Shown piece by piece: positions 48,711-60,616 of a DNA stretch of 64,000 nt (position 1 is the first letter of the stretch; each line of letters opens with the position of its first letter). This stretch comes from Hydrotalea flava (GTDB taxonomy: Bacteria; Bacteroidota; Bacteroidia; Chitinophagales; Chitinophagaceae). The stretch is from contig NZ_LUHG01000041.1 in the NCBI RefSeq assembly GCF_001623405.1, forward strand, positions 1 through 64,000, read 5' to 3'. The translations under genes were made by a program, and so were the position numbers. The notes beneath the pieces are model-generated. The model was not told where the DNA came from. It did not search any database and saw only the letters and a list, made by a program, of their open reading frames with translations.

Positions 48711-49148
48711 TTATCTTTTTAAAACGGCCAGCTTTTTTTCCAACAATTCATTAAACTCACCCAGTCTGGCACGTTGCAATAACTCAAAAATTTCAGCGCG
48801 TATTTTCTTAAAATCGTTATGAATGGGACATGGCAATTTTTCAGAACATTGTTTTAAGCCTAATCCGCATCCGTTAAAAATTTTATCGCCATCTATTGCT
48901 TTCACAACATCGGCCAGTGTATATTGTAAATTACTTTCATCTAAATAAAACCCGCCAGTTGGGCCTTTTAAAGATTGTATTAAACCCTTTCTGCTTAAGT
49001 CTTGTAATATTTTCCCTAAAAAATATTCCGGAGAGCCAATGCCTTTAGCAATATCTTTAATACTAACCTTTATGCCGTGTTTAGACTTTTGTGCAATATA
49101 TAAAATTGCCCGGATAGCGTATTCACATGTTTTTGAAAACATATTCAT
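48711..49148 (-). CDS. Rrf2-family transcriptional regulator, likely Fe-S-sensing
   Basis: 145 residues from ATG at 49148; an upstream ATG at 49163 lies inside the -7 box and is unlikely. Winged helix-turn-helix N-terminal part (CEYAIRAILYIAQ, IAKGIGSPEYFLGKILQDL, GLIQSLKGPTGGFYL), then three cysteines Cys94, Cys101 and Cys107 (CGLGLKQCSEKLPC), as in Fe-S-binding Rrf2 proteins such as NsrR and IscR. NsrR responds to NO. Its position before a cbb3 oxidase and a RIC/globin run fits NO or oxygen control; that is inference. The same 17-bp sequence lies before it and before ccoN. Confidence 0.9.
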   Translation of the reverse strand: MNMFSKTCEYAIRAILYIAQKSKHGIKVSIKDIAKGIGSPEYFLGKILQDLSRKGLIQSLKGPTGGFYLDESNLQYTLADVVKAIDGDKIFNGCGLGLKQCSEKLPCPIHNDFKKIRAEIFELLQRARLGEFNELLEKKLAVLKR

Positions 49149-49160
49149 GGTTTGTGGGCA

Positions 49161-49168
49161 CAAAAATA
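49161..49168 (-). promoter_or_regulatory. Putative -7 box of rrf2
   Basis: TATTTTTG on the minus strand matches TAnnTTTG. It lies 12 bp before the rrf2 start at 49148, so the message would have a very short leader. Confidence 0.45.
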
Positions 49169-49251: not shown

Positions 49252-50814
49252 CTAAATAAAAAAGAAATGTAATGCCTTCCATAGTGTGATAATACTGGTT
49301 ATCATGACCATTATACCAACCGCTACATACATTTTTTTGACAGGCAACCTCCCTGCTAATTTTGCGGCTATAGGCGCTGCCAAAACACCCCCAATAATTA
49401 AACCGGCTACATCAAACAATGGAATATGTTTTAATACAATAAAAAAAGTAAGTGCGCTGGCAAATACAACAAAAAATTCAGCCAAACAAACCGAACCAAT
49501 TACATAACGCGGATTTTTACGTTTTGAAATTAATGTACTGGTTACCAAAGTTCCCCAACCACCGCCGGCAAAAGCATCGGTAAATCCGCCAATACCCGCC
49601 AGCCAACCGGCACGCTTTACTTTATTGCCATTACGTTGTGCAGCAAATGCCTTGCATATTATATGATATCCCAGAAATAAAGTGTAAAATGATAATGGAA
49701 TTTTGATATAAAAAGCATATTGCTGCACCATACTTGCCAATGTGGCTCCCAATACAGCACCAAGCATGCCCGGCACCACTAAACTTTTAAACAATTTTTT
49801 ATTAATGTTACCAAACCGATGGTGCTGATAACCTGATACACCACTTGAAAAAACTCTGGCAGCATGCACCCTGCTACTTACAATAGCAGGATTAACACCA
49901 TTAGCCAAAAGAAAAGTAGTAGAAATGGTGCCATACCCCATGCCTAATGAACCATCCACCAGTTGAGCAATAAACCCGGTTAATAACATGATTGCAAAAA
50001 CCTGCCAATCAATTAAATGTACCAGATGGTGCAAGCCCACACGCCAGCTAAATTCAGGAATCAATGAAAGAATTGTATGCCCCAGTATCATAAACACAAA
50101 AGCAAACAAACACCATTTTACAATTTGTTGCCATTTTTTTTCCTTGGGGGTCTGTAATTTTATATCGTTCAATTGCATATTTTTTGCAACCAATGTTTGT
50201 GTAAGCTGATTGAGGTGCTTTACCTTATCAGCAAAATTTCCAGCTAATTGATTTCTAATGTGTTGCATATTATACAGCAAGGCATCTACGTCATCCGGTA
50301 TTATTTCATACAATAGTTCTTTTAATCGTTTTGCAATGGTAGGCGATTTACCATTGGTTGAAATGGCAATTTTTAAATTACCTTTTTGCACCACTGAACC
50401 CAGATAAAAATCACATAGTGCAGGTTTATCAGCTACATTCACCAATAAATTCATTGCATGCGCATCTGCCCGAATGGTTGCAGCCAACTCAATATTATTT
50501 ACTGCCACAAACACCAATTGTTGATTTTTTAAGAAAGAAGGTTCATATTTCTGTTGTACAATAGTAATATGCGTATTGACTGCAGCAATTGCATAAATTG
50601 CCGGTTTAATTTCGGTAGCTACAATTGTAATAGGTGTAGCAGGGGCATTTTGTACAATACTTTGCAGTTTTTCCATGGCAATATTTCCACCACCTACTAT
50701 CAATACAGCCATTGTTTCTAATTTGAAAAATACGGGAAACAAATTGTTCTGCTCAGTACTGTTTGCATTTGCAGGAGCTACCTCTAAATATGGTTGAATA
50801 ATATCGACATTCAT
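49252..50814 (-). CDS. Fusion: precorrin-2 dehydrogenase (SirC/CysG-N) with TauE/SafE sulfite exporter
   Basis: 520 residues. The N-terminal half (about 25-225) is a Met8p/CysG-N domain: LFPVFFKLETMAVLIVGGGN (NAD loop), MNLLVNVADKPALCDFYLGS, LKIAISTNGKSPTIAKRLKE. It oxidises precorrin-2 and may insert iron to give sirohaem. The C-terminal half (about 235-520) is a TSUP/TauE/SafE permease with about 8 membrane helices: GFIAQLVDGSLGMGYGTIST, VSSRVHAARVFSSGVSG, GGFTDAFAGGGWGTLV. Both parts fit the sulfate assimilation cluster: sirohaem is the cofactor of CysI and the exporter may remove excess sulfite. The gene starts 4 bp inside the DUF2490 gene. Confidence 0.87.
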   Translation of the reverse strand: MNVDIIQPYLEVAPANANSTEQNNLFPVFFKLETMAVLIVGGGNIAMEKLQSIVQNAPATPITIVATEIKPAIYAIAAVNTHITIVQQKYEPSFLKNQQLVFVAVNNIELAATIRADAHAMNLLVNVADKPALCDFYLGSVVQKGNLKIAISTNGKSPTIAKRLKELLYEIIPDDVDALLYNMQHIRNQLAGNFADKVKHLNQLTQTLVAKNMQLNDIKLQTPKEKKWQQIVKWCLFAFVFMILGHTILSLIPEFSWRVGLHHLVHLIDWQVFAIMLLTGFIAQLVDGSLGMGYGTISTTFLLANGVNPAIVSSRVHAARVFSSGVSGYQHHRFGNINKKLFKSLVVPGMLGAVLGATLASMVQQYAFYIKIPLSFYTLFLGYHIICKAFAAQRNGNKVKRAGWLAGIGGFTDAFAGGGWGTLVTSTLISKRKNPRYVIGSVCLAEFFVVFASALTFFIVLKHIPLFDVAGLIIGGVLAAPIAAKLAGRLPVKKMYVAVGIMVMITSIITLWKALHFFFI

Positions 50815-51521
50815 GGCTTTGAATGGAATTCGTGATAAATATTGAATCGAATGATATGTTGGTTATCTCTATAATCCAACGCACCGACAGACTTATATTG
50901 GCATTGGTACATATATTGCAATTGACAGCTCAATGTTTTATGATGCATATAATAAATACCTGAAAAAATTCTCAACACATCCACAACATTGGTTTTATTG
51001 GCAACCAACATACATTCAGTACCGATTTCTCCAACATAAATTGGTGAAACAGGAAATGTAACTGCCATTTTATTTCGCCATCTGTTGGCATAAGCAAAAG
51101 ATTGTGTGCCATCTACAGCTTTTTTTTGTAACCATCTTTCTTCCCAACGGGTTCTGTTCGTGAGGGTGAAGTGATTGATTGGAATTTGAAAAGCATTTTC
51201 CTGCCATAATCTATATTCATCTAAATAAATATTTTCAAGATGTAACTGACCGGCAGATTTAAAATAGGCAGTCCCGGCTGTAATTGTCCATGTCGGTGTG
51301 ATTGAATACGCAATCCCAGATCGTATGAGCATTTGCGATAATTGCGAAAATCCGTATTTGGAGCGCAACTGCATATCGCCGGAAATTTTCCATTTTTCAG
51401 AAACGGGTGCTGAAAAAAAATAACCGGCCCAAACAGCGGAAGTACTTGTATTCACAGATTGTGCTGCAACACTACAAAAAAGCCCTGAAAATGAAATAGT
51501 ATATATGATTTGCCTGATCAA
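50811..51521 (-). CDS. DUF2490 domain exported protein
   Basis: 236 residues with a signal peptide (about 1-20, ending VAAQ). The rest is beta-rich with the DUF2490 pattern: AVWAGYFFSAPVSEKWKISG, LRSKYGFSQLSQMLIRSGIA, DEYRLWQENAF, FTLTNRTRWEERWL and LRIFSGIYYMHH. DUF2490 proteins are predicted outer membrane barrels of unknown function. It lies 11 bp after cysI and overlaps the next gene by 4 bp, so it is transcribed with the sulfite reduction genes; why an outer membrane protein is here is unclear. Confidence 0.8.
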   Translation of the reverse strand: MIRQIIYTISFSGLFCSVAAQSVNTSTSAVWAGYFFSAPVSEKWKISGDMQLRSKYGFSQLSQMLIRSGIAYSITPTWTITAGTAYFKSAGQLHLENIYLDEYRLWQENAFQIPINHFTLTNRTRWEERWLQKKAVDGTQSFAYANRWRNKMAVTFPVSPIYVGEIGTECMLVANKTNVVDVLRIFSGIYYMHHKTLSCQLQYMYQCQYKSVGALDYRDNQHIIRFNIYHEFHSKP

Positions 51522-51532
51522 AGCAAAAAATT

Positions 51533-53203
51533 TTAGGTATTAAAAAAATAATTATTCGCAAAATCACCAAAACGTTCACCTGATTTTCGGTTCAATTTAA
51601 ATTGCCGGAAGCAGTTATCTAAAGTTACAAGAATGGTTGCTTCTTCTAAATTTTCACGATATAGTTTATTGAGTCTGTATCCTTCATAATCGCCACCAAG
51701 ATATAAGTTGTATTTACCGTATGCAGTGCCTATCAAGCCTATTTCAGCTGCATAAGAACGGGCACAACCATTGGGGCAACCGGTCATTCTAATAATAATC
51801 GCTTCTTGCTCTAATTCGTATTTTTTTAACAGCAATTCAATTTTAGTTAACAAATCGGGTAAATAGCGTTGTGCTTCTGCCAGAGCTAAAGGGCAGGTAG
51901 GAAATGCTACACAAGCCATTGACCGTTGCCTAACAGATGAAGTAGACTCATTTTGAGTGATAATACCATATTCAGTTAAGATAGATGCAACTCTTGACTG
52001 ATGTTGCGGTGCAATATCGCTGATAATTACATTTTGATTACAGGTAAACCGAAAATTTGCAATGCCTGCCTGTGCAATTTTTAATAAAGCAGTTTTTAAT
52101 TGAACGTGGGGGGTATCTGTAATTCTGCCATTTTCAACAAAAACAGTATAATACCATTTACCAACGTGGTTTTGATGCCATCCTAACTGATCTGCTCTTT
52201 CTACAAATTGATAGGGTTTTTCGGTTTCAAATGTATATCCGCTCCTGGCCTCAATTTCCTTTTTAAACCAATCTATACCATATTTATCAACGGTATATTT
52301 TAAACGTGCAAATTTTCTGTCAGCTCTGTTACCATAATCGCGTTGTATGGTTGCCACAGCATAAACTGTTTTTAAAACATTTTCCTCGCCCTGCACAAAT
52401 CCAATCACCGTTGCTAATCGCGGATAAGTATCTGAATTACCATGTGTAGATGCCAGACCGCCTCCAATGGCTATATTAAATCCTATAAGCACATTATTTT
52501 CAATAATCGCAATTAAACCAATATCATTTGCAAAAACATCCACATCATTATTCGGTGGAATTGCAATGGCAATTTTAAACTTACGGGGCAAGTATCTGTC
52601 TTGGTACAAATCATCCTTTTCTGCTTCCGGTTCATATATTATTTGATCATCCAGCCATATCTCTGCATATCCTTTGGTTTTAGGAAGCAACCTGGCGCAG
52701 ATTTTATCTGCAATGGCAAATACTTGTTCATGCACAGGTGAATAAGCAGGATGTGCACTGCACAATACATTCCTGTTAATATCTCCACAAGTGGCAATGG
52801 TTGTTAAGTCAGCATGATGAAATGCCTGCAATGTTGGTTTAATATTGGCTTTAATAATACCGTGCAATTGTATGGTTTGCCTGCTGGTTATTTTTATAAC
52901 ACCGGTAGTATACGTACCGGCGGCATGATGTATGGCCACCCATTGCTGTGGCAACATAAAACCACCCGTTAATCGCAAACGAACCATGAATGTATACAAA
53001 CGTTCCAATTTTTTTTCGGCGCGTTCTTCTCTTCTGTCCCGATCATCCTGTTGATACATTCCATGAAATTTGATGAGGGCCTGATCATCTTCCCGAATGG
53101 CACCCGTATGTTCATCCTGCAAGCTTTCAGCAAGGGTACCACGTAATCCGCGACTTGCCATTTTAATTTTTTCGATATTGGAAAGTTTAATATTATCTGA
53201 CAT
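51533..53203 (-). CDS. cysI: Assimilatory sulfite reductase, haemoprotein subunit
   Basis: 556 residues. Two-fold repeated nitrite/sulfite reductase domains (LRLTGGFMLPQQWVAIHHAA near the start; the second half GRITDTPHVQLKTALLKIAQ). The [4Fe-4S]-sirohaem cysteines are present: CVAFPTC and, about 38 residues on, CPNGC (in MTGCPNGCARSYAAEIG). It reduces sulfite to sulfide with six electrons from CysJ. CysI and CysJ form the NADPH-dependent complex. It follows cysJ after 24 bp. The sirohaem needed is made by the CobA and SirC-TauE proteins of the same cluster. Confidence 0.94.
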   Translation of the reverse strand: MSDNIKLSNIEKIKMASRGLRGTLAESLQDEHTGAIREDDQALIKFHGMYQQDDRDRREERAEKKLERLYTFMVRLRLTGGFMLPQQWVAIHHAAGTYTTGVIKITSRQTIQLHGIIKANIKPTLQAFHHADLTTIATCGDINRNVLCSAHPAYSPVHEQVFAIADKICARLLPKTKGYAEIWLDDQIIYEPEAEKDDLYQDRYLPRKFKIAIAIPPNNDVDVFANDIGLIAIIENNVLIGFNIAIGGGLASTHGNSDTYPRLATVIGFVQGEENVLKTVYAVATIQRDYGNRADRKFARLKYTVDKYGIDWFKKEIEARSGYTFETEKPYQFVERADQLGWHQNHVGKWYYTVFVENGRITDTPHVQLKTALLKIAQAGIANFRFTCNQNVIISDIAPQHQSRVASILTEYGIITQNESTSSVRQRSMACVAFPTCPLALAEAQRYLPDLLTKIELLLKKYELEQEAIIIRMTGCPNGCARSYAAEIGLIGTAYGKYNLYLGGDYEGYRLNKLYRENLEEATILVTLDNCFRQFKLNRKSGERFGDFANNYFFNT

Positions 53204-53227: not shown

Positions 53228-54922
53228 TTAGTATACTTCCTTTACAAACCTGCCTTCATTTTTTAGCTGTTGAAAAAAAGCAACTGCATTTGAATATTTT
53301 CCTGAAGTTGCAATCATGTCAATAATTGCCTGATCTAGTTTTGCACCTGTAAAATCTTTTTCTCCACTTACAAAAACATAGGCACCCTGTTCTATCCATT
53401 GTATAAAAGTGGCTGCATGATGCTGTAACTTTTCTACTAATGTTGCAGGTTGCATTACATTATGTTGGAAGCAAAGATGTAACTGATGTATATGCCCTGT
53501 TGCATACCAATCTTGAATTTCGGTTTGATATAAAAAGTCAGTAGTGAAATTATCTTCTTCAAAAATTAACCAGTTTTTCCCTTCTGCACCTGCATTATCG
53601 CGTTGCAAAAGAAAAGAACGAAAAGGTGCAATGCCTGTTCCATGCGCTATCATTATTATGGGCACATCATCCTGTGGCAATTTGAAGCGTTTGTTTTTTT
53701 GCACAAAAAAATGAATGGGTGATTGGAGGGGCATTTCAGATAAATAATGTGAGCACAAACCATTTTTTTCAGCCTCATTTATATAAAATCTTTCCAGATT
53801 TATGGTTAAATGAATGGCATTTTCATTTGCAATAGGTGAAGAAGCAATGGTATACAATCTGGGCGATTGCGCCTGCAATAATGCTATGAATGGTTCTAAT
53901 TGAGATTGAGTTTTTAATGGATAAATTTTTAATAGATCCAATAAATCCATTCTGGTTCCAGGAATATCCTGCTCCGTTAATGCTGCATATTTTTTTATTA
54001 TCTTTTCAGATAAGTTCAAAATATTTAATTTTTTGCTCAACAATGTATCGATAGCATAGGACTCATCTTTATATAAAAATTTTTTTTCTGGATGTACCTG
54101 AAGTAAGTGTAAAATTTCATCCACAACATGAGCAGGATTTTCAGGATAAACACCAATGGAATCTCCCGGCTGATAATCAACTGAATCTGCCGCAATTTCA
54201 ATATGAAATGTTTGTTTACAAGAACCTTTATCGTTCAATACTATTTTTTTATCAATCAGTCCGCTATAAGTTTGTTTTGCTGTTTTGGATACAATTGCAA
54301 CGTTTTTAGATGCTGCATTATTTGATGCTGGAAAATTGTTGGTTAGCAATTTTTCAATGAGCCCATTAAACCAGTTATTGGCATCCACTTCATAATCCAC
54401 ATCACATTTGGCCAGTTCATGAATTCTTTTTGCGCCTAACCTATTCAATTGCATATCCACATCTTCACCCGTTTTACAAAACAAAGGATAGCTGCTATCA
54501 CCCAAACCAAGCACTGCATATTGCAAATGATTTAAGTTAATTTGTGTTTGATGCAAATATTCATAAAATGAAAGTGCAGCAGCAGGTGGCTCTCCATCGC
54601 CCTGAGTGCTAATAACTACTACCAATAGAGATTCTTTTTCAAGATCTTTAGGTGTATATTGATCTAATCCAATTAATTTAACCAAACATTTCTTTTGTTT
54701 AGCCAGCGAAGCAAACTGTGTGGCCAATTGTTTGGCATTACCGGTTTCGGTTCCATACACAATGGTTAATTTAGGCTTAACGTTTGTAGCAGGTAAAGTA
54801 ACCACTTCTGTTGTATCCTGTTGAATAATTCCGGCAATATATCCGTTTATCCATATAAGCTCTTCTTTACTGGAGCTTTGAACCAGATCAATGATTGTTT
54901 TGAGTTTAGGTGCGGCTAACAT
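53228..54922 (-). CDS. cysJ: Sulfite reductase flavoprotein subunit
   Basis: 564 residues. Flavodoxin-like FMN domain (about 50-190: LTIVYGTETGNAKQLATQFA, LLVVVISTQGDGEPPAAAL, VLGLGDSSYPLFCKTGEDVD), then FAD-binding domain with RLYTIASSPIA, a connection domain, and NADPH-binding domain with IIMIAHGTGIAPFRSFLLQR and GAYVFVSGEKDFTGAKLDQA. It passes electrons from NADPH to CysI. The gene overlaps cobA by 17 bp and precedes cysI by 24 bp. All parts and length fit. Confidence 0.94.
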   Translation of the reverse strand: MLAAPKLKTIIDLVQSSSKEELIWINGYIAGIIQQDTTEVVTLPATNVKPKLTIVYGTETGNAKQLATQFASLAKQKKCLVKLIGLDQYTPKDLEKESLLVVVISTQGDGEPPAAALSFYEYLHQTQINLNHLQYAVLGLGDSSYPLFCKTGEDVDMQLNRLGAKRIHELAKCDVDYEVDANNWFNGLIEKLLTNNFPASNNAASKNVAIVSKTAKQTYSGLIDKKIVLNDKGSCKQTFHIEIAADSVDYQPGDSIGVYPENPAHVVDEILHLLQVHPEKKFLYKDESYAIDTLLSKKLNILNLSEKIIKKYAALTEQDIPGTRMDLLDLLKIYPLKTQSQLEPFIALLQAQSPRLYTIASSPIANENAIHLTINLERFYINEAEKNGLCSHYLSEMPLQSPIHFFVQKNKRFKLPQDDVPIIMIAHGTGIAPFRSFLLQRDNAGAEGKNWLIFEEDNFTTDFLYQTEIQDWYATGHIHQLHLCFQHNVMQPATLVEKLQHHAATFIQWIEQGAYVFVSGEKDFTGAKLDQAIIDMIATSGKYSNAVAFFQQLKNEGRFVKEVY

Positions 54923-55760
54923 AAGGTTGCATTAATTCATGATGTAAATAAGGTTCGGCAGTGCCGGTAACGGATGGAAAATAAAGCGCATGTTGTGGAT
55001 TACTACTTTTAAACCAATTGAATTGATGGCTTAATGATGCCACTTTCCCAATAATTACCAATGAAGGAGAAAGAAATTGCATGGAACCAAATTGCAATAA
55101 AAAATTACGAACAGGAGCACCATACACCTGCTGCATAGAGGTAGTTGCCTGTTCAATAACGGATATCCATTTATGTTCATCAATACCAGACTGCCGTAAA
55201 TGTTCAATTAAAGGTTCTAAAGTTTCAGATGACATATACCAAACCAAAGTATCATCTGTTTTGGCCAAATCGTGCCAATAGGAATCAGGAATTAAATTTG
55301 TTTTATAGTAAGTCAAAAAGCGGACTGCCGTGGCATAATTACGAGCTGTTAATGGAATACCTGCATAAGCTGCAGCACCCGAAGCGGCTGTAATACCGGG
55401 AACAATTTCAAAAGGGATGGAATATTTTTTCAAAATTTCCAATTCATCTAGTACATTCGAAAAGAAAGACACATCTCCTCCTTTTAATCGCACCACCAAT
55501 GGTTGTGAAGTTGCATACTGCACTAGCAAAGTATTGATGGTTTCCTGCGAAGTGGACAAGCCATATCGGCATTGCTTACCTACCGGAATGATGGTTGCAT
55601 GTGGATTTACATAACGTTCCAGTATGGCTTCACTTACCAACCTGTCTACCAATACCACATTGGCCTGTTGTAAATATTGAACCGCTTTTATAGTAATTAA
55701 GTCTGGATCTCCCGGTCCTGCACCAATGATGATTACTTTTCCTTTGTATGTAGTTTTCAT
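54906..55760 (-). CDS. cobA: Uroporphyrinogen-III C-methyltransferase
   Basis: 284 residues. SAM-dependent tetrapyrrole methylase: VIIIGAGPGDPDLITIKAVQ at the start, VVLVDRLVSEAILERY, VVRLKGGDVSFFSN, and EIVPGITAASGAAAYAGIPL (SAM pocket). It makes precorrin-2 from uroporphyrinogen III, the precursor of sirohaem for CysI; the dehydrogenase is supplied by the fusion gene at 49252-50814. The stop overlaps cysJ by 17 bp. The ATG is directly preceded by a palindromic operator (55761-55780), and a terminator separates it from cysK. Confidence 0.93.
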   Translation of the reverse strand: MKTTYKGKVIIIGAGPGDPDLITIKAVQYLQQANVVLVDRLVSEAILERYVNPHATIIPVGKQCRYGLSTSQETINTLLVQYATSQPLVVRLKGGDVSFFSNVLDELEILKKYSIPFEIVPGITAASGAAAYAGIPLTARNYATAVRFLTYYKTNLIPDSYWHDLAKTDDTLVWYMSSETLEPLIEHLRQSGIDEHKWISVIEQATTSMQQVYGAPVRNFLLQFGSMQFLSPSLVIIGKVASLSHQFNWFKSSNPQHALYFPSVTGTAEPYLHHELMQPYVSRT

Positions 55761-55829: not shown

Positions 55830-56741
55830 TTAAAACAATCCCTCAACAGATAAATAACGTTCGCCTGTATCGTAATTAAAAGTAAGGATTGCATTATTTT
55901 CCGGAATGTCAGATAGTTGTTGTGCAATGGCTGCTAATGATGCACCTGTAGAAATACCTGCCAATATGCCTTCTTTCTTTGCCAATTGTTGCGTATAATG
56001 AAAAGCATCATCTTTACTTACTTTAATGGCACCATCTAGTAATTTAACATTGAGAATAGATGGAATAAAACCTGCGCCAAGCCCTTGTAAAGGATGTGGC
56101 CCCGGTGCACCACCACTGATGACAGGTGATAATTCAGGTTCAACAGCAAAAATTTTGATGGATGGCCATTTTTCTTTCAAAACTTCTGCAACACCGGTAA
56201 TATGTCCACCAGTACCTACACCCGTTATCAAATAATCAATTCCATCCGGAAAATCAGCCACAATTTCATGTGCAGTAGTTTGATGGTGAATTTTTGTATT
56301 CGCCTGATTATCGAATTGCTGGGGCATCCAGGCTCTATGATTATCATATACCATTTCGTTCGCTTTTTCTATAGCCCCCTTCATGCCTTTTTCACGAGGC
56401 GTCAACACAAATTCGGCTCCGTATAATGCCATTAATTTCCGGCGCTCAACACTCATGCTTTCCGGCATTACTAAAATAACTTTGTATCCTTTTACAGCAG
56501 CAACCATAGCAAGACCAATACCTGTATTGCCGGAAGTAGGTTCCACGATAATACTATCTGGATGCAGTAATCCTTTTTTTTCTGCGTCTTCAATCATCGC
56601 TAATGCAATCCGGTCTTTAATACTTCCACCCGGATTCATTCTTTCCAATTTCATCCATACCTGATGTCGGGTTCCAAAAATTTTTTTTAACTGAACATGT
56701 GGTGTATTTCCAATAGTTGCTAATATATTGCCTGCCTTCAT
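55830..56741 (-). CDS. cysK: Cysteine synthase A
   Basis: 303 residues. PLP-dependent fold II with Lys42 in [53 protein letters not shown] and the C-terminal STGASLAA. It makes cysteine from O-acetylserine and sulfide. The substrate is supplied by CysE, whose gene lies 16 bp upstream on the same strand; the two enzymes form a complex in many bacteria. A second enzyme of this family, the CysM type, is encoded at 7946-8827. The hairpin after the stop suggests a transcript end here. Confidence 0.94.
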
Positions 56742-56757
56742 GATATGATGTATTAAT

Positions 56758-57591
56758 TTAAATTACAAAATTGAGTGGTTCGGGAAATGGATTATTATCT
56801 CTTACTTTAATTTCACTTTTGTGATACACTACCGAATATGGCTCTACACTATAGGTTAACCAAACATTGCCACCTATAATACTATCATGGCCAATGATGG
56901 TATCACCACCTAAAATGGTTGCACCAGAATATATCACAACATTATCTTCAATAGTAGGATGCCTTTTGGTGGCAGCATCTTTTTTATCAACACTTAACGC
57001 ACCAAGCGTAACCCCTTGATATAATTTAACATGATTACCCAGCACACTGGTTTCGCCAATTACCACACCGGTACCATGATCAATAGAAAAAGCATGGCCA
57101 ATTTGTGCACCGGGATGAATATCAATCCCGGTTTTACTATGGGCGTACTCTGTAAACATTCTTCCTAAAATCTTTAAATTCAAATGCCATAACACATGCG
57201 AAAAACGGTAAACTGCTGTAGCAAAAAAACCGGGATAGGCTACTAATACTTCTTCCAATGTTTGTGCAGCGGGATCCGATTGTAAAATGGCATGCGCATC
57301 TTCTAATAATGCATCATACACATTCGGCAATTGTTCAAAAAAGCGGCGAATAATTGCGTCTGCAGGCAATTCTTCCTGAATAAATCCTTTAATCATACTT
57401 TGAAAGCGTACCCTTAAATCTGCATAATCGCGTTGTATCGCCAACAACCCACCCTCTCCATTATTTTTTGGAATGAACAATAATTGAAATAAATCAGATA
57501 CAAAACTTTCGGTTGCTGCTTTATCGGGAAAAACCTGAAAACATTTGTCGTTGCGCAGATATAACTTTTCTAAAAATAATGTTTCATCCAT
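56758..57591 (-). CDS. cysE: Serine O-acetyltransferase
   Basis: 277 residues from ATG at 57591, with an in-frame Met at 57606 as an alternative. N-terminal helical domain, then a left-handed hexapeptide helix: [78 protein letters not shown]. Serine and acetyl-CoA form O-acetylserine. The catalytic His-Asp pair lies in [17 protein letters not shown]. Longer N-terminal region (about 150 residues) than the short EpsC type. Part of the cys cluster between cysN and cysK. Confidence 0.92.
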
Positions 57592-57666
57592 AATTGTATA
57601 CAACATCTGGTTTTCAATAAAGTTTCCTACAACATTTTTGTAATAGATTCATCTATATCTTTCTTT

Positions 57667-58908
57667 TTACTGTAACATACAGGCACCTACTGTAACATTG
57701 GTTGCTTCATCAATTAATATAGCACCTCCATTTGCGCTAAGTGTGTTATAACTATCAAAAGCCAGTGGTGATGCTGTTTTCAAAACAATTTTAGCAATTT
57801 CGTTCAGTCCAATGTATGATACATTGTTTTTTTGTTCCAATGTATTTACATCTAAAGCATACTGTATTTCGCTAACCATACATTTTACCATTGTACTGTT
57901 TATCTGAAGCCAATAACGGTTTCCTTTTTGCAATGGTTTTGCATCCATCCAGCAAATTAAAGTTGTAATTTCTTTAGAAACAGTTGGTAACTGATGTGAA
58001 GGAACAATTAAATTTCCTCTGCTTACATCAATATCGTCTTTCAAATGTAACACAATACTTTGTGGTGCAAAAGCTTCGTTCACTTTTTTACCATTGTGTT
58101 CAATATAATCGATGGTGGTGGTGAGTCCTTCCGGAAGCACCGTTACGGCATCACCCTGCTTGAGTATTCCACTAATTAATTTGCCTGCATAACCGCGATA
58201 GTCGTGCCATTCAGGGCTTTGTGGCCGTATAACATATTGAACAGGAAAGCGGGTTATGTTCAAATTTACATCCTGATGGATGGAGATATTTTCTAAAAGT
58301 GATAATAAAGACGGTCCATCATACCAGCTTAATAATTCTGATTTTTCAACAATATTGTCGCCATTCAAGGCACTGATAGGTAAATAAGTAATATTGTTTA
58401 ATCCTAATGACTCAGCTACTGCGGCATAATCTATTACAATGTTATTGAAGGTATCTTCTGAATAATCCACCATATCCATTTTATTAATGGCAATAATGAC
58501 ATGCGGAATTTTTAACAATGCAGCAATGATGGAATGACGTTTGGTTTGCTCTACTACCCCATTACGAGCATCAATGAGAATGATAATCAAATTCGCATTC
58601 GATGCGCCGGTAACCATGTTGCGGGTATACTGTACGTGGCCGGGTGCATCTGCAATAATGAACTTTCTTTTAGGGGTTGAAAAATATTTATACGCCACAT
58701 CAATGGTAATACCTTGCTCTCTTTCTGCTCTTAAGCCATCTGTCAATAATGCCAAATCAATCTCACCCAATGCTTTGTGTTTGGTTTGTTGCTGAATGGC
58801 TGTTAACTGATCAATCATAATAGATTTACTATCATACAACAATCGACCAATTAATGTACTTTTGCCATCATCCACACTACCTGCAGTAATAAATCTCAAA
58901 ATATCCAT
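57667..58908 (-). CDS. cysN: Sulfate adenylyltransferase subunit 1 (GTPase)
   Basis: 413 residues. EF-Tu-like GTPase: G1 GSVDDGKSTLIGRLL, switch II DAPGHVQYTRNMVTGAS, G4 NKMDMVDY. The C-terminal barrel domains follow. It is not fused to a CysC APS kinase domain, and no separate cysC is in the cluster. With CysD it makes APS from sulfate and ATP. It follows cysD after 23 bp. Confidence 0.94.
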   Translation of the reverse strand: MDILRFITAGSVDDGKSTLIGRLLYDSKSIMIDQLTAIQQQTKHKALGEIDLALLTDGLRAEREQGITIDVAYKYFSTPKRKFIIADAPGHVQYTRNMVTGASNANLIIILIDARNGVVEQTKRHSIIAALLKIPHVIIAINKMDMVDYSEDTFNNIVIDYAAVAESLGLNNITYLPISALNGDNIVEKSELLSWYDGPSLLSLLENISIHQDVNLNITRFPVQYVIRPQSPEWHDYRGYAGKLISGILKQGDAVTVLPEGLTTTIDYIEHNGKKVNEAFAPQSIVLHLKDDIDVSRGNLIVPSHQLPTVSKEITTLICWMDAKPLQKGNRYWLQINSTMVKCMVSEIQYALDVNTLEQKNNVSYIGLNEIAKIVLKTASPLAFDSYNTLSANGGAILIDEATNVTVGACMLQ

Positions 58909-58931: not shown

Positions 58932-59849
58932 TTAAAAATATCCATTTTTTTTACGGTCTTCCATTGCAGCTTCAGAAACCTTGTCATCAATTCTGGTTTC
59001 ACCACGTTCACTGGTTTTGGTGGCAATAATTTCTGCAATAATATCATCAATATTGGTGGCAGTTGATTCTATTGCGGCAGTACATGACATATCCCCAACT
59101 GTTCTATAACGTACTTGCTTTGTTGTAATACAATCATCTTCTGCAATTTGAATAAAGGGCGAAACAGCAACCAATTGTCCTTCATACTCAATTACTTCAC
59201 GCTGATGTGCAAAATAGATAGAAGGCAGTGCTATCTGATGCCGCTTTATATAATTCCAGATATCTAACTCTGTCCAATTGCTAATGGGAAATACCCGAAC
59301 ATTTTCACCTTTATGAATTTTACCATTATAGATATTCCATAACTCGGGACGTTGCAGTTTGGGATCCCACTGCCCAAATTCATCCCGCACAGAAAAAATT
59401 CTTTCTTTGGCACGTGCTTTTTCTTCATCGCGGCGTGCACCGCCAATACATGCATCAAACTTAAATTCTTCAATAGCATCTAAAAGTGTAAAGGTTTGCA
59501 ATGCATTTCTGCTGGCAAATTTGCCTTTAGGTTCAGGTAAATTTTTAGAACGCATGGTATCTTCCACTTTTCTAACAATTAATTGCTCACCTATTTCATG
59601 CACCAATGCATCTCTAAATTGTAATACTTCCGGAAAATTATGTCCGGTATCAATATGTAATAAAGGAAAGGGAAAATTGCCCGGCCTGAATGCTCTTAAA
59701 GCCAAGTGAACTAAAGTAATGGAATCCTTTCCCCCACTAAATAATAATACCGGTTTCTCGAACTGACCGGCAACTTCCCTAAAAATGTGAATAGCTTCCG
59801 ATTCTAATTGGTCTAAATGATCTAAATGATATAAATGATATTTTTCCAT
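58932..59849 (-). CDS. cysD: Sulfate adenylyltransferase subunit 2
   Basis: 305 residues. PP-loop ATP pyrophosphatase: VLLFSGGKDSITLVHLALRAF, LLHIDTGHNFPEVLQFRD, GGARRDEEKARAKERIFSVR and the C-terminal RTVGDMSCTAAIESTA. It adenylates sulfate, with CysN providing GTP energy. The N terminus has a repeated YHLYHLDHLDQL stretch. It lies 20 bp after cysH and 23 bp before cysN. Confidence 0.94.
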   Translation of the reverse strand: MEKYHLYHLDHLDQLESEAIHIFREVAGQFEKPVLLFSGGKDSITLVHLALRAFRPGNFPFPLLHIDTGHNFPEVLQFRDALVHEIGEQLIVRKVEDTMRSKNLPEPKGKFASRNALQTFTLLDAIEEFKFDACIGGARRDEEKARAKERIFSVRDEFGQWDPKLQRPELWNIYNGKIHKGENVRVFPISNWTELDIWNYIKRHQIALPSIYFAHQREVIEYEGQLVAVSPFIQIAEDDCITTKQVRYRTVGDMSCTAAIESTATNIDDIIAEIIATKTSERGETRIDDKVSEAAMEDRKKNGYF

Positions 59850-59869: not shown

Positions 59870-60616
59870 TTAACGATGAACAGTATTGTCAGCATGTACG
59901 TGCAAACCGCATTCTTTTTTTGTGGCATCCTCCCACCACCATCTTCCGGCTCTAAAATCTTCACCAGGTTGTACAGCTCTGGTACAAGGTGCACAACCAA
60001 TACTTACAAAGCCCCTGTCATGCAAAGGATTATAAGGAACATCGTGTTGCTGAATGAAAGTTTTGACTGTTTCAGTTGTCCAATGTAAAATGGGATGAAA
60101 TTTAATTATTGCATGACTACTGTCCCATTCCAACATGGGTAAATCTTTTCTATCGGGCGAATGTTCGGCACGCAAACCGGTAATCCATACTGCATTACCC
60201 AGCAATGCCTTTTGTAAGGGTTCCACTTTGCGGATGAAACAACATAGTTTTCGGTTTTCGACCGAAGCATAAAAAGCATTGGGACCATTTTGGGTTACAA
60301 AGTTTTGCAATGTGTTTGCCTCAGGATAATAAGCGGTTATTTGCGCATTGTACTTTTCTTTTGTTCTTTCCCATACGGAATAGGTTTCAGGAAAAAGCCT
60401 TCCTGTATCTAAGGTAAATATTTTAATATCCAGTTGATGTTTTAGAATCCAATAAGTAATGGCCTGATCTTCTATACTAAAACTGGTTGAAAAAACAACT
60501 TTACCCGGAAATTGAGCTGCCAAAAATTGCAGTGCTTCCAATTCTGATAATCCCTGAAGTTGCGTTTGAAAATGTTGAAGGTTGGGTGATATTTTTACTG
60601 ATTCCATGATTTGCAA
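59870..60616 (-). CDS. cysH: APS-type (adenylyl-sulfate) reductase
   Basis: 248 residues (Met4 at 60607 is an alternative start). PAPS-reductase fold: VVFSTSFSIEDQAITYW, TLDTGRLFPETY, RAEHSPDRKDLP. It has Cys125-Cys126 in KLCCFIRK and Cys208-Cys211 in GCAPCTR, the [4Fe-4S] ligands of APS reductases, plus catalytic Cys236 in KKECGLHV. This fits direct APS reduction to sulfite, which explains the absence of an APS kinase. First gene of the cys run; an operator-like palindrome lies upstream. Confidence 0.93.
   Translation of the reverse strand: MQIMESVKISPNLQHFQTQLQGLSELEALQFLAAQFPGKVVFSTSFSIEDQAITYWILKHQLDIKIFTLDTGRLFPETYSVWERTKEKYNAQITAYYPEANTLQNFVTQNGPNAFYASVENRKLCCFIRKVEPLQKALLGNAVWITGLRAEHSPDRKDLPMLEWDSSHAIIKFHPILHWTTETVKTFIQQHDVPYNPLHDRGFVSIGCAPCTRAVQPGEDFRAGRWWWEDATKKECGLHVHADNTVHR

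Follow-up and report, generated by a model that had tools for sequence, protein, structure and literature searches.

We analysed a 64,000-nucleotide stretch of Hydrotalea flava DNA (hereafter the window), in which ten genes lie in a run on the minus strand in the order cysH, cysD, cysN, cysE, cysK, cobA, cysJ, cysI, a DUF2490 gene and, in last position, a gene that joins a sirohaem-synthesis enzyme to a membrane permease (Table 1). The run covers the pathway between sulfate activation and cysteine, along with the first enzyme of sirohaem synthesis. Its genes are separated by gaps of -17 to 69 bases, and we infer that they are co-transcribed from cysH through the fusion. No second recognised inner-membrane transporter was found in the ten-gene run. 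An Rrf2-family regulator gene lies downstream of the fusion; its membership of the cys unit is uncertain, and a gene of this kind was found with 4 of the best 80 of at least 589 relatives recovered from named genomes (see below).

Table 1 Genes of the cys run and segments of the fusion protein, with positions in the window
Feature	Position	Strand	Basis
cysH, (P)APS reductase	59870-60616	-	NF002537, TIGR02055 and TIGR00434, above cut-off
cysD, ATP sulfurylase small subunit	58932-59849	-	TIGR02039, above cut-off
cysN, ATP sulfurylase large subunit	57667-58908	-	TIGR02034, above cut-off
cysE-like serine O-acetyltransferase	56758-57606	-	TIGR01172 and EpsC, under cut-off
cysK, cysteine synthase	55830-56741	-	above cut-off
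cobA/SUMT, uroporphyrinogen-III methyltransferase, first sirohaem step	54906-55760	-	above cut-off
cysJ-like flavoprotein	53228-54922	-	best family TIGR01931 (cysJ), under cut-off
cysI, sulfite reductase haemoprotein, sirohaem user	51533-53203	-	above NF010029 cut-off; slightly under TIGR02041 cut-off
DUF2490 protein (PF10677), overlapping the fusion gene by 4 bases	50811-51521	-	profile match
Fusion gene, sirohaem-synthase (PC2DH/ferrochelatase) domain and TSUP permease, 520 aa	49252-50814	-	ORF, domains, relatives
NAD_binding_7 Rossmann domain, residues 28-140, containing D129	50395-50733	-	Pfam, E 1.2e-21
Sirohm_synth_M central segment, residues 145-168	50311-50382	-	Pfam, E 3.2e-9
Hydrophobic helix, residues 227-251, after a charged linker	50062-50136	-	AlphaFold2 model and hydropathy
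TSUP (Pfam TauE, PF01925) permease domain, residues 277-508	49291-49986	-	Pfam, E 3.3e-31
Rrf2-family regulator, 88 bases downstream of the fusion	48711-49163	-	profile match

The fusion ORF runs unbroken from ATG to TAG over 520 codons. Matches of its product to NAD_binding_7, Sirohm_synth_M and TauE each exceed the Pfam gathering cut-off. The PF01925 match scores 109.2 bits against a cut-off of 32.6 and covers profile positions 2-235 of 237, and the NCBIfam model of the CysG N-terminal domain, TIGR01470, matches at 112.5 bits against a cut-off of 62.3. These data bear out the original prediction that a single protein carries a precorrin-2 dehydrogenase (PC2DH) together with a TauE/SafE domain. 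A frameshift or an internal start yielding two separate proteins would have spoken against it. However, uninterrupted single-ORF fusions are present in many genomes, which rules out a local frameshift or assembly artefact as the source of the fusion. Furthermore, M213, the methionine closest to the junction, is common to just 1 of 18 relatives, which gives no indication of a conserved internal start. Each half comes from a known family, and their fusion appears to be undescribed: we found no report of it by title or abstract in the openly accessible literature.

Across 70 of 70 aligned fusions the enzyme half shows no variation at D129 or at the residues that make up the CDFYL and STNG.SP motifs. 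This alignment contains 70 of 76 prepared rows (L034, L042, L101, L108, L110 and L111 were left out); L055, L062, L074, L082 and L095, each cut or a duplicate of the protein in another row, were not included. D129 aligns with D104 of CysG, which we take to be the catalytic aspartate, in agreement with the D104 mutant structure entries among the fold matches, and T153 of the fusion aligns with S128 of CysG. An AlphaFold2 model of the fusion based on 70 sequences had a mean pLDDT of 86 and a pTM of 0.66. The solved folds nearest to its enzyme half are CysG, SirC and Met8p (Z 15.6-19.2; Foldseek E 8e-9), the best of which aligns over 198 residues with a Z of 19.2 and an rmsd of 3.4. A CbiX/SirB-type chelatase was absent from all 12 fusion-bearing genomes searched and present in 10 of 14 controls, suggesting that the enzyme half probably inserts iron as well. 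The half is a putative PC2DH and probably also a ferrochelatase. It shares the NAD_binding_7 and Sirohm_synth_M domains, the D104-aligned aspartate and the predicted fold with the N-terminal module of CysG (CysGB), Met8p and SirC. In CysG, however, this module is joined to the SUMT methyltransferase, whereas in the H. flava run SUMT has a gene of its own and the module is instead coupled to a membrane permease.

The window genome encodes a second copy of the enzyme, a stand-alone protein of 206 aa that is 45% identical and lies on another contig. Its locus (L125:1112-15077, G000:C3), which also holds a second SUMT (above cut-off) and a molybdopterin oxidoreductase, places it roughly 10 kb away from a nitrite reductase of the NirB type, the enzyme that it presumably serves. 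A general need for sirohaem is disfavoured as the reason for the fusion, since this copy, near a nitrite reductase in the same genome, is unfused.

The TSUP half is predicted to be a multi-helix membrane domain, with helices in the model from residue 227 onward and several hydrophobic stretches. The helix at residues 227-251 is likely the first transmembrane helix and would join the two halves. Neither sequence comparison nor the fold search with the model matched a solved TSUP structure. The best solved fold for residues 267-515 was the undecaprenyl-pyrophosphate phosphatase BacA (Foldseek E 0.011, TM 0.29/0.50), which aligned over 234 residues with a Z of 11.8 and an rmsd of 4.0 when the whole-protein model was used.

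A survey of the fusion in other Bacteroidota, as the original prediction had proposed, revealed that it is widespread. At least 23 of 395 phylum genomes (the window genome and loci L004-L025) have one ORF spanning both halves, a lower bound in that up to three candidates were scored per genome; 189 of the 395 match the fusion protein of the window at all. Among 88 family genomes, a draw that overlaps with that of the phylum, 42 have a full-length fusion and 61 have any match. Finally, a scan of named genomes yielded at least 589 confirmed relatives, of which we kept the best 80. In each of them a single ORF encodes both halves, although these loci were chosen by score and do not estimate prevalence. 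A contig end truncates three of the 80 (L055, L062 and L074), and seven have a protein identical to that of a locus in the other draws. Their hosts include Chitinophagaceae, Hymenobacteraceae, Saprospiraceae and others. One fusion, on a contig labelled Thermoanaerobaculia (Acidobacteriota; L098), groups with Bacteroidota sequences and may reflect a mis-binned contig or a transfer.

The loci of the best 80 of at least 589 relatives, many of them on short contigs, contain cysI in 58 cases, cobA in 44, cysN in 43, cysD in 34 and cysH in 28. Of the 47 loci that offered more than 9 kb of upstream sequence, 44 carried at least one cys or cobA gene in the same orientation as the fusion; the exceptions are L041, L051 and L086.

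We then compared the presence of each half with that of pathway genes across the 88 family genomes. Counting fused and free forms alike, the enzyme half was present in 57 of 58 genomes that have a sirohaem reductase domain (NIR_SIR, PF01077) and in 0 of 30 without. The TSUP half was present in 50 of 59 genomes with CysD and in 0 of 29 without. The cross-associations were strong too (TSUP in 46 of 58 genomes with NIR_SIR versus 4 of 30 without; PC2DH in 53 of 59 with CysD versus 4 of 29 without) because the functions co-occur, and the weight therefore falls on the 11 discordant genomes. Among six genomes with CysD and no NIR_SIR, four had TSUP (G410, G453, G425 and G458) and none had an intact PC2DH. 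Among five with NIR_SIR and no CysD, none had TSUP and four had PC2DH (G126, G400, G443 and G448). Fisher tests on these 11 genomes, which ignore kinship among them, gave p = 0.015 for PC2DH and p = 0.061 for TSUP. In the four genomes of the latter group the enzyme gene lies in an operon of the order cobA-cysJ-cysI-PC2DH, without CysD and without a permease (L160, L161, L219 and L220). Conversely, five genomes that lack a sirohaem reductase have kept TSUP beside cysH, cysD and cysN and have no intact enzyme half. Beyond the four family genomes named above, G331, from another family, likewise has no reductase, and its enzyme half is degenerate. The presence of TSUP fits CysD, and with it sulfate activation, better than it fits the sirohaem reductase.

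The presence lists were compiled by hand from the fusion, CysD and NIR_SIR searches, CysD meaning the ATP sulfurylase type that was searched. PC2DH was scored as present on a match across most of that half with E <=1e-43, a call on the match rather than on residues checked genome by genome. In G434 the PC2DH is cut by a contig end and its fusion state is not judgeable. The CysD match of G400 (E 2e-5) was counted as absent and those of G444 and G463, under cut-off, as present; a partial NIR_SIR match in G433 was counted as present, and the sole match in G461 is NirB-like, judging from its length. A TSUP of a distant clade did not prevent G091 and G399 from being scored as TSUP-positive. The one genome with NIR_SIR and no PC2DH, G428, is 83% complete. 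Nine of the 59 CysD-positive genomes lack TSUP. In five of them (G449, G405, G440, G411 and G463) cysC accompanies cysD and cysN, and in G418 cysD-cysN lies amid apparent sugar-metabolism genes (by eye); such sets would serve sulfation. The nine also include G434, G447, which has a Pst-like ABC transporter (see below), and G450, whose context offers no explanation for the absence. The cysC-cysD-cysN sets at L205, L207 and L211, which lack TSUP, include a CysQ-like gene (by eye) and are close to sugar genes, look more like sulfation loci than cysteine loci.

The original prediction held that both halves concern the CysI step and that the fusion may couple cofactor supply to sulfite removal or bring the enzyme to the membrane. 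The tie of both halves to assimilatory sulfate reduction stands; the placement of the transporter half at the CysI step is not supported. If the TSUP half were an exporter, it would release CysH-made sulfite when CysI lags, and the fusion would match cofactor supply to sulfite relief. The Pfam name of the family, like the name TSUP, derives from exporters. Moreover, the association with CysD, without which the TSUP half never occurs in the 88 genomes, is compatible with sulfite export because CysD usually comes with CysH, the sulfite maker. Indeed, cysH is one of the recurrent neighbours noted above (28 of the best 80 of at least 589 loci, many short) and adjoins TSUP in the five genomes that lack a sirohaem reductase and in which sulfite would have to leave by some other route. 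However, the permease is missing from four genomes (G126, G443, G400 and G448) that have a sulfite-handling operon but no CysD, and export would deprive the gene run of any recognised importer. Furthermore, a TauE homologue from Pseudomonas, TK06_RS10770, is reported to restore growth of Escherichia coli lacking cysA, which its authors interpret as sulfate uptake (PMC11535334). The lack of another recognised importer in the run, the tracking of CysD by TSUP and this published uptake, together with the absence of the permease from the four CysD-negative cysI operons and its retention in the five reductase-less genomes, favour sulfate import over sulfite export. We consider export unlikely, and in this respect depart from the original prediction.

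Two published cases bear on import by this family. The same study describes Ac3H11_578, a TSUP gene among sulfate-assimilation genes (PMC11535334), and in a second study CysZ of C. glutamicum is taken as a characterised sulfate transporter within TSUP (PMC5840216). The fusion shares PF01925 with TK06_RS10770 and Ac3H11_578 and, like the latter, is encoded among sulfate-assimilation genes; unlike TK06_RS10770, it has an N-terminal sirohaem enzyme. The likeness seen here is one of family and gene context.

It is similarly doubtful that the TSUP half transports another sulfur or oxyanion substrate (such as thiosulfate, a sulfonate, molybdate or chromate) that supplies the pathway or interferes with it. 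In favour of this idea, sequence is said to be no guide to the function of a TSUP protein (PMC5840216), and the loci of the best 80 of at least 589 relatives, many on short contigs, include TonB-receptor-like genes in 40 cases and DUF2490 in 24, which suggests a larger envelope uptake route. Against it, none of the 88 family genomes has the TSUP half without CysD, in the proportions given above (50 of 59 versus 0 of 29).

We also searched for other carriers that could bring in sulfate. SulP proteins are able to carry sulfate, and matches above cut-off were found in 78 of the 88 family genomes, among them the window genome with two. SulP as a mutually exclusive substitute for TSUP is unsupported: it occurs with and without the fusion. 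Two of the 42 fusion genomes have no SulP match at all and one further genome has only a 49-residue fragment. CysT-type sulfate permeases above cut-off were found in 0 of the 88 genomes and DASS carriers in 0 of 12 genomes searched; PiT proteins were found in 12 of 12. The frequency of SulP and PiT weighs against TSUP as the sulfate importer, and the lack of CysT-type and DASS carriers in its favour. Matches to TIGR00969 (142-170 bits, 13 of 88 genomes) were rejected as a replacement for TSUP: the eight loci examined (L176-L183) adjoin an ABC ATPase gene, with no cys-pathway gene labelled, and from the gene lengths our guess is that these genes function in molybdate transport. Another candidate came from G447, whose operon has the enzyme and no permease, and which has no SulP match. 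Here, a Pst-like ABC transporter, with PstC above cut-off and a binding protein under the PstS cut-offs, is encoded directly upstream of the cys genes (L209:1931-5461) and is a candidate alternative oxyanion importer. The case is suggestive only, because a similar set lies next to a fusion in G391 (L184:4610-8047). A Pst-like ABC transporter labelled by BLAST only is also encoded directly upstream at L074. Also counting against the import reading, some TSUP genes of the same or sister clades occur away from cys genes, at L151, L152, L157, L190 and L199. The families found do not settle how sulfate enters these Bacteroidota, with CysT-type and DASS carriers absent from the 88 and 12 genomes, respectively, and SulP common but of uncertain substrate. 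A TSUP protein tied to sulfate-assimilation genes and joined to a cofactor enzyme is a strong candidate for the importer.

The enzyme half has degenerated in six fused proteins (L152-L155, L026 and L202), where it scores 27-78 bits compared to 190-307 in the other 120 fused ORFs. The catalytic aspartate is missing in all six, and the glycine motif of the nucleotide site is kept in three (L154, L026 and L202) and lost in three. Five of these loci have the order cysH-cysD-fusion-cysN (with extra genes between in G410) or cysH-cysD-cysN-fusion; the sixth, L152, lies away from cys genes. Among the hosts, G453, G410 and G331 have no reductase, and G407 and G269 have another, intact copy of the enzyme.

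For phylogenetic analysis we reduced the fused rows to 37 by thinning at ~64% identity, a set that contains all six with a degenerate enzyme half. In the TSUP tree, which has a midpoint root only, the sampled fused halves form one clade (100/99) with unfused or eroded ones nested at several places, amounting to 6 changes between fused and unfused and at least 10 between an intact enzyme half and one that is not; in a second tree the long-branched L172 was dropped and the TSUP of G458 added. In the enzyme tree, from which the six degenerate rows were left out and whose bootstrap had not settled, fused and unfused rows are intermingled, with at least 11 changes, so gain, loss and transfer are not separable. 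The simplest story suggested by these trees is a single fused TSUP lineage in which the enzyme half was lost repeatedly, with a number of origins that the weak enzyme tree does not fix.

The two functions also occur side by side without being joined. PC2DH and TSUP are adjacent, unfused genes, in that order, in G444 and G091. Similarly, an operon in G206 (family f5, L159) has TSUP and PC2DH family genes in one run with cysH, cysD, cysN, a gene for a weakly CysI-like protein of ~718 aa and cobA, as around the fusion, but here TSUP and PC2DH are separate, lie at opposite ends, and the TSUP is from a different clade than that of the fusion. The fusion is therefore dispensable. In G091, the stand-alone enzyme (L165) is sister to the fused L086 (100/92) and the adjoining TSUP is from a distant clade, an apparent replacement of the permease partner.

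The fusion gives both halves a fixed stoichiometry, and this could be its sole consequence. We see an even chance that neighbouring operon genes were joined harmlessly, the product ratio being fixed and each half working alone, a view compatible with either transport reading. The unfused neighbours in G444 and G091, the separate genes of the G206 operon, the six degenerate enzyme halves and the unfused members nested in the fused TSUP clade are all consistent with it. On the other hand, the persistence of the fusion across Chitinophagaceae, Hymenobacteraceae, Saprospiraceae and other groups hints at some benefit, and with fused and unfused rows mixed in the enzyme tree the roles of gain, loss and transfer cannot be told apart.

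The reading that we prefer, and to which we give slightly better than an even chance, is that of a dual-role protein that supplies sirohaem for CysI and imports sulfate, with the cofactor enzyme held at the membrane. The N-terminal half would lie on the cytoplasmic side, where it would oxidise precorrin-2 and probably insert iron to yield sirohaem for CysI. The C-terminal TSUP half would most likely be the sulfate importer of the pathway. The fusion would place both sulfate entry and the making of the cofactor for sulfate assimilation under one gene at the end of the cys run, and would position the cofactor enzyme at the membrane. Such tethering of the enzyme half is plausible; we infer the dehydrogenase and chelatase activities, the cytoplasmic orientation, the substrate and direction of transport, and any benefit that a physical link may bring. 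If this model is correct, proteins annotated by family as sulfite exporters would be importers in many genomes, and the fusion would lend itself naturally to the question of whether a cell couples the supply of a cofactor to the entry of the substrate.

A tighter form of coupling, in which the enzyme half gates the permease, seems to us quite improbable. The NAD(H)- or tetrapyrrole-bound state of the enzyme half would control sulfate entry, such that uptake would occur only when the cofactor can be made. In potassium channels and Kef exchangers, comparable control is exerted by cytoplasmic Rossmann (RCK/KTN) domains. The predicted fold of the enzyme half resembles the RCK domains of KefC, TrkA and MthK (Z 10.8-12.2), as it does many Rossmann folds. 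The loss of the catalytic aspartate in L154, L026 and L202, in which the glycine motif has been kept, would be in keeping with such a role. Against gating, the other three degenerate halves have lost the motif, and there are permeases of the same clade that have no such half.

Three further observations concern the wider gene context. DUF2490 accompanies TSUP in the window, in G410 (L216:10804-11844) and on a plasmid of Legionella adelaidensis (L175:5814-6503); in G410, which has no sirohaem reductase, a large TonB-receptor-like gene (by eye) is found with the two. DUF2490 may be an envelope partner of this type of transporter. In five plasmid records examined, 0 of 5 TSUP genes lay in a sulfate-assimilation operon. 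Finally, genes for 5-aminolevulinate synthase (419 aa, TIGR01821 above cut-off), porphobilinogen deaminase and ALAD lie between cysI and the fusion at L057:6285-9956. This set is a Shemin-type start of tetrapyrrole synthesis among Chitinophagaceae cys genes; models were run on L057 alone, and genes of similar lengths are present at L082, L093, L094, L099 and L105.
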